A stretch of DNA of 47,840 nt from NCBI GenBank assembly GCA_014764605.1, contig JACXWG010000005.1, positions 1 to 47,840 of the forward strand, given 5' to 3'. How positions within the stretch are numbered: the first letter of the stretch is position 1; every line of letters begins with the position of its first letter. The stretch is from Quinella sp. 1Q5 (GTDB taxonomy: Bacteria; Bacillota; Negativicutes; Selenomonadales; Selenomonadaceae). The position numbers and the translations under genes are program-made. The notes below the pieces were generated by a model that saw only the letters and a program-made list of their open reading frames with translations, was not told the DNA's origin and did not search any database. Below, one piece after another: positions 20,396-20,824 of this stretch.

Positions 20396-20423
20396 TTGCA
20401 AAAAATTTCACGGCGGCTATAAT
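20396..20423 (+). promoter_or_regulatory. Putative promoter of antisense RNA
   Basis: TTGCAA, 16 bp, TATAAT. No plus-strand CDS lies between it and the terminator at 20729-20764. Confidence 0.45.
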
Positions 20424-20424
20424 A

Positions 20425-20477
20425 AAAAAACCGCATCGCTAAAGATAGCGAGCGGAGTACTTGACAGAAGCGGTTTT
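20425..20477 (-). terminator. Intrinsic terminator of the small-peptide transcript
   Basis: Minus strand CCGCTCGCTATCTTTAGCGATGCGGTTTTTTTATT. Confidence 0.65.
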
Positions 20478-20560
20478 CGCCCTCGATAAAATGTTTCTAA
20501 AGATAAGCTGTGAAACCTAGGTCGTCTAAAGCTTGGAGGAGCTTAGGCGGCCGTTTTGCT
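20430..20560 (+). ncRNA. Candidate antisense RNA overlapping the 3' end of the small-peptide mRNA
   Basis: Starts after the 20396-20423 promoter. Ends at hairpin CGTCTAAAGCTTGGAGGAGCTTAGGCGGCCGTTTT (20523-20556). Confidence 0.3.
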
Positions 20561-20623
20561 GAGTAGGAGCAGGATTGCTCCCGTCAGTGCTGTTACGCGG
20601 ATAATGATTTTAATCACGCGCAT
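20543..20623 (-). CDS. 26-aa hydrophobic peptide MRVIKIIIRVTALTGAILLLLSKTAA; candidate type I toxin
   Basis: ATG at 20623 preceded by GGGGGTGAGGAT (strong anti-SD complementarity), TAA at 20543-20545, promoter and terminator on the same strand. Not in the ORF track because of its size. Confidence 0.5.
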   Translation of the reverse strand: MRVIKIIIRVTALTGAILLLLSKTAA

Positions 20624-20689
20624 ATCCTCACCCCCAGTCCGAGGGCTCTGGTCTAACCGCCTGCCGTTTATAGGCGCAAGCACGAACGA

Positions 20690-20718
20690 ATTATAGCACG
20701 CTGTCAATAAAATGCAAA
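20690..20718 (-). promoter_or_regulatory. Putative promoter of the small-peptide transcript
   Basis: Minus strand TTTGCA, 17 bp, TATAAT; predicted 5' UTR about 60 nt. Confidence 0.55.
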
Positions 20719-20728
20719 AGGAGATTTC

Positions 20729-20764
20729 AATCCCTTAGGTTGTTTAGCAGGGATTTATTTTTTT
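20729..20764 (+). terminator. Intrinsic terminator upstream of the GGDEF/EAL gene
   Basis: AATCCCT...AGGGATTTATTTTTTT. Confidence 0.65.
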
Positions 20765-20824
20765 ACGTTGAATAGCGTTGAACAGCGGAATCTTGGCATA
20801 ACAGAGGAAAGGAAGTGATTTATA

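Follow-up and report, generated by a model that had tools for sequence, protein, structure and literature searches.

Between era and a GGDEF/EAL gene on the chromosome of Quinella sp. 1Q5 there very probably lies a type I toxin-antitoxin locus whose antisense RNA overlaps the 3' end of the toxin mRNA, belonging to a family absent from Rfam, Pfam and NCBIfam. The window analysed was the whole 47,840-nt stretch of contig JACXWG010000005.1 (GCA_014764605.1, positions 1 to 47,840, forward strand). A first-pass annotation had proposed such a locus from the sequence, and comparative evidence, with copies across the genus and family, supports that reading. The evidence in hand consists of the anatomy of the locus, selection on the coding frame, covariation, conserved placement of both promoters, and gain and loss of the element.

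Anatomy of the locus downstream of era

The minus strand carries a short open reading frame (ORF) behind a strong Shine-Dalgarno sequence (SD), and the plus strand a facing promoter. The features, in window coordinates, are as follows.

20690..20718, minus strand: toxin-mRNA promoter, TTTGCA-N17-TATAAT (promoter scan; a similar -10 lies upstream of most copies)
20427..20695, minus strand: extent of the whole element in the match to the covariance model R1 (score 177.1 bits, with the window locus itself among the R1 training sequences)
about 20683 to 20424, minus strand: predicted toxin mRNA of ~260 nt, with putative ends
20677..20682, minus strand: leader arm 1 of the 5'-3' long-distance helix, TGCTTG (two-sided changes in 6/6 pairs, 84% paired)
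20654..20661, minus strand: leader arm 2 of the long-distance helix, GGCGGTTA (98% paired)
20641..20646, minus strand: anti-SD GCCCTC of the local SD hairpin (97.5% paired), with the 3' tail as alternative partner (83.9%)
20626..20635, minus strand: Shine-Dalgarno sequence GGGGGTGAGG, kept across the family
20543..20623, minus strand: ORF of the 26-aa hydrophobic peptide MRVIKIIIRVTALTGAILLLLSKTAA, putative toxin (dN/dS 0.17)
20520..20557, plus strand: hairpin spanning the toxin stop codon, followed by TTTT; likely antisense-RNA terminator (covariation helix 4; frozen codons AAA-ACR-GCC-GCC)
20458..20484, minus strand: 3' tail GAGGGC-AAACCGCT-CAAGTA, complementary to the leader (covariation, leader-tail duplex energies)
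20424..20455, minus strand: toxin-mRNA intrinsic terminator, a hairpin with 7 T (stem covaries in 5/7 pairs)
20396..20423, plus strand: antisense-RNA promoter, TTGCAA-N16-TATAAT (-10 at the same place in 57/77 copies against 1/77 in the control)
20430..20557, plus strand: predicted ~130-nt antisense antitoxin RNA (from promoter, terminator and complementarity)

Both promoters read exactly as first described (20718..20690 on the minus strand, 20396..20423 on the plus strand), and the ORF with its SD and the sense terminator were recovered, as was, on the plus strand, a hairpin followed by a short run of T. The proposed pairing of the leader with the SD is also present, but the conserved form joins GCCCTC (20641-20646) to GGGGGT and not CCCTC to GAGG. 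Two features go beyond the earlier description, namely the covarying pairing of the leader with the 3' tail and the position of the toxin stop codon inside the likely antisense-terminator hairpin, which within the genus is followed by only four T. The predicted antisense RNA is complementary to the toxin 3' UTR and last codons, and contains a mimic of the toxin leader sequence. Promoter-like sites alone were at chance level (4 in 1.2 kb, 1.7 +/- 1.6 expected; not significant alone), so that relatives were needed to decide; the locus is lifted above chance by a second copy elsewhere in this genome and by copies in congeners, across the genus and in the family.

A further plus-strand hairpin with a T-run (20723-20766) lies between the element and the GGDEF/EAL gene. 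It was matched in several congeners, including at empty era sites, and is therefore probably part of the ancestral era-downstream region. A repeat-like 29-nt dispersed match near 20745-20775, for which some but not all of the dispersed matches were traced, likewise corresponded to the era-downstream/GGDEF-upstream region, present at empty era sites.

Coding selection, RNA structure and the predicted antisense gene

The reading frame is conserved in relatives and is under purifying selection. In the true frame dN/dS was 0.17 for the 26-aa group and 0.28 for the 24-aa group (0.71-4.3 in other frames), nucleotide differences within the ORF fell mostly at codon position 3, and the spacing between SD and start was conserved. 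The locus thus encodes a small (<60 aa) hydrophobic peptide with a conserved coding frame, as is looked for in a type I toxin. Alanine was encoded by GCC in 179/180 cases at the C-terminal end compared with 7/79 in the ORF body, which suggests a second constraint on the last codons, most simply the stop-codon hairpin and putative antisense terminator.

Covariation among relatives, proposed in the first-pass annotation as a check, was found for the pairing of leader and tail, for the hairpins at the SD and at the stop codon, and for the terminator. In the structure alignment A1 (59 aligned elements), five helices were paired in 92.1% of cells, compared with 34-48% when slid, with two-sided changes in 15/32 pairs; covariation of inverted repeats alone does not distinguish which strand's RNA folds. 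The set comprises a 5'-3' long-distance helix, in which TGCTTG and GGCGGTTT of the leader bind the tail, the hairpin that holds the SD (anti-SD GCCCYC, loop, GGGGG), the one over the stop codon, and the terminator stem. The duplex of a leader with its own tail was stronger than with swapped tails in 64/78 genus loci and 33/35 family or phage loci.

Folding of the full-length RNA in silico gave the long-distance helix a mean probability of 0.84 and left the SD unpaired with a probability of only 0.09, an occlusion like that of type I toxin mRNAs. Blocking the tail lowered the latter value to 0.05 and did not open the SD. Because folding gives a long-distance helix and an occluded SD that tail blocking leaves closed, the primary toxin transcript is expected to be inert in translation, a property described as a hallmark of type I loci (PMC6733600). 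As predicted occlusion changes so little on tail blocking, a conformational switch of the SD like that of SR4 is not clearly supported by the models. Pairing of the anti-SD with the tail is a conserved alternative helix, and alternative states lay within 3 kcal/mol in 25/34 cases, the SD being re-paired elsewhere and not freed. A model in which the tail opens the SD by drawing off the anti-SD and the antisense RNA recloses it was set aside as the main mechanism, since in silico the effect was weak (opening by >0.2 in 6/76, closing in 0) despite the conserved alternative helix.

For the plus strand, an RNA of ~130 nt antisense to the toxin 3' end had been suggested, and the promoter predicted to drive it (product 20430-20557) occupies a fixed position behind the sense terminator. 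An antisense -10 (ATTATA read in sense), -3..25 nt from the terminator end, was found in 57/77 genus loci (1/77 in the control window) and in 29/38 family and phage loci (2/38 in the control). Judged by this fixed promoter position and the terminator-like hairpin, an antisense gene appears to overlap the toxin mRNA. Most loci lacking the -10 at this place have extra 3' units without an ORF, and in nearly all of them the -10 stands behind the last unit. These loci apparently encode one antisense transcript with tandem antitoxin modules. Second units of this type past the toxin terminator were seen in L006, L025, L026, L034, L038, L040, L043 (where there is also a third), L061, L086, L114 and L118.

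Distribution of the family and of other peptides on the same RNA

A blastn search of 41 genomes found the element once more in the genome of the window (G000:C75, peptide MRVVKIIIRITALTGVIMLLLSKTAA) and also in congeners, where some of the copies stand in tandem. The ORF is broken in a third copy of the window's genome (C84); a weak match there (C96), low in score and without an ORF, was discarded. The 90 distinct ORFs collected encode hydrophobic peptides of 24-28 aa, mostly ending in [ST]-K-T-A-A and each preceded by a strong SD; organism labels in the pattern scan were Selenomonadaceae or Selenomonadales metagenome-assembled genomes, mostly from the ruminant gut. Three off-lineage pattern hits (Patescibacteria, Planctomycetaceae, Roseobacter) were without an R1 match and were attributed to chance. 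R1 matched 55/66 genomes of the genus with up to 23 copies each, dispersed or in tandem, 123/189 genomes and 17/30 genera of the Selenomonadaceae, and 103/351 genomes and 23/103 genera of the Negativicutes; in the phylum sample one genome outside the class was matched. Copy numbers of 23 and 17 elements were observed in G052 and G055 of the same genus, and the window locus is one of hundreds of copies overall.

No Rfam covariance model matched the locus. The first-pass annotation had named a match to a known RNA family, and a reading frame not kept in relatives, as results that would refute its proposal; neither was obtained. The peptide, which had been described as outside recognised type I toxin families, matched no Pfam or NCBIfam family, the sole Pfam line being DUF4223, far under the cut-off; this covers the peptide side of a comparison with Fst/par, a further system named in the first-pass annotation. 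A search of annotated plasmids and phages with three peptides gave no match.

Presence of the element varies at the era site. It lies behind era in five species, that of the window included; in a sixth (G077) both ends of the element are kept and the toxin ORF is lost, and seven further genomes have a GGDEF/EAL-type gene directly after era, without the element.

In other genera the same RNA chassis (leader, SD hairpin, stop hairpin, tail and facing antisense gene) carries YDF-type peptides, for example MTKYDFYTLVFLTLLIIVAIKA. By profile comparison these appear to resemble Hol_Tox, Pfam's putative holin-like toxin family (hhalign 92%, E 6.5e-7 against Selenomonadaceae Hol_Tox), whereas window-type peptides aligned to neither the YDF nor the Hol_Tox profile (Hol_Tox probability 0.4), and homology of the window peptide to either was rejected. 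The window-type ORF runs into the stop hairpin; YDF ORFs end before it. Viral contigs carry MEYGLIILVLIFATGYIIAIKKK-like peptides on the chassis, others MNETN-types. IMG/VR viral contigs with the chassis and other short peptides (E 1e-17 to 6e-10) included loci L244, L248, L251, L252, L253, L256, L257, L260, L261 and L263. Separately, Hol_Tox was found above the Pfam cut-off in 13/61 family genomes (loci L227-L238, other Selenomonadaceae), where inspection revealed an SD hairpin, leader-tail complementarity and an antisense -10. What is unusual about the family is that a single RNA chassis carries different peptides and that antitoxin units without an ORF stand in tandem. It is conceivable, at somewhat less than even confidence, that one conserved chassis serves several exchangeable peptide toxins, unrelated in sequence, across Negativicutes and their prophages, and that some of the antisense genes have been amplified into tandem units that lack an ORF and share a single promoter, to give a multi-module antitoxin RNA.

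Proposed mechanism, alternatives and known systems

We infer two transcripts, their pairing in the cell, decay by RNase III and toxicity of the peptide. On the minus strand, an mRNA of ~260 nt would encode the presumed toxin, a membrane peptide of 26 aa with a single helix. A local leader hairpin would hold the SD while the leader also binds the 3' tail, so that full-length mRNA would be poorly translated. On the plus strand, a ~130-nt antisense RNA would start from the promoter just past the toxin terminator and could pair perfectly with the toxin 3' UTR and last codons. It would repeat the leader segment to which the tail is normally bound, and end in the hairpin around the toxin stop codon. 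Once the two RNAs are paired, RNase III may degrade the mRNA, and the SD would stay closed.

Coding selection and a membrane-like composition would look the same in a non-toxic small membrane protein, such as one that regulates a membrane complex, for which antisense control is incidental. This explanation is improbable. Genomes with as many as 23 copies, dispersed or in tandem, presence and absence at the same site with one loss of the toxin ORF, carriage of a prophage-like kind and the use of one RNA for different peptides all fit a toxin-antitoxin system better. The strong conserved structure and the ORF-less 3' units would suit a structured non-coding or regulatory RNA (sRNA, attenuator or riboswitch-like) with an incidental ORF; yet dN/dS is well under 1 only in the ORF frame, SD-start spacing is conserved, the element's own terminator precedes any downstream gene and Rfam gave no match, making this very unlikely. 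Least probable of all is a selfish miniature mobile element or repeat with a passive ORF. Its dispersed and variable copies, and the insertion and empty sites at era, would be expected of such an element, but both coding and structure are under selection and apparently orthologous sites (the era site) are retained across species; terminal repeats or target-site duplications were not noticed in the course of the analysis.

A type I toxin-antitoxin locus remains the preferred reading, and the convergent, 3'-overlapping layout of txpA/RatA and bsrG/SR4 named in the first-pass annotation fits it (PMC6562991). Like these Bacillus subtilis systems, the locus would combine a short hydrophobic toxin, an mRNA in their range of ~260-290 nt, an SD in a short stem, a facing antisense RNA overlapping the 3' end by >100 nt, and prophage links (PMC6562991); their mode comprises a 3'-overlapping antisense RNA, RNase III decay and an SD kept closed (PMC6562991). 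It differs in its conserved 5'-3' long-distance helix, in a toxin ORF that extends into the antitoxin terminator, and in that an SD switch like that of SR4 is not clearly predicted. The convergent pairing with the mRNA 3' end typical of TxpA/BsrG and Hol_Tox (PF16935) loci is predicted from the sequence, whereas the peptide has no detectable homology to Hol_Tox peptides (no Pfam hit; hhalign probability 0.4). Hol_Tox loci in Selenomonadaceae have, by inspection, a similar general plan, and the YDF peptides of the chassis align to Hol_Tox; the window-type peptide does not, and R1 gave no comparable score on Hol_Tox loci. By analogy the locus most likely acts like txpA/RatA and bsrG/SR4 without peptide-level membership of TxpA/Hol_Tox. 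BsrG and TxpA are not toxic in E. coli (PMC12390103).

In the aapA/IsoA systems of Helicobacter, as in the locus, the toxin mRNA combines a 5'-3' long-distance interaction with a local anti-SD hairpin (PMC6733600), and there are several chromosomal copies. Here, in contrast, the predicted antisense RNA covers the 3' UTR, and blocking the tail leaves the SD closed in silico, where 3' truncation opens it in aapA/IsoA.

No open paper on type I toxin-antitoxin systems of Negativicutes was found. If the interpretation is correct, this class gains a type I toxin-antitoxin family that is widespread, lacks annotation and reaches 23 copies in one genome, together with a covariance model that detects loci missed by peptide searches. 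The family would also offer a natural series of paralogues for the specificity and cross-talk of antisense RNAs, and for the swapping of toxins on a conserved regulatory RNA.
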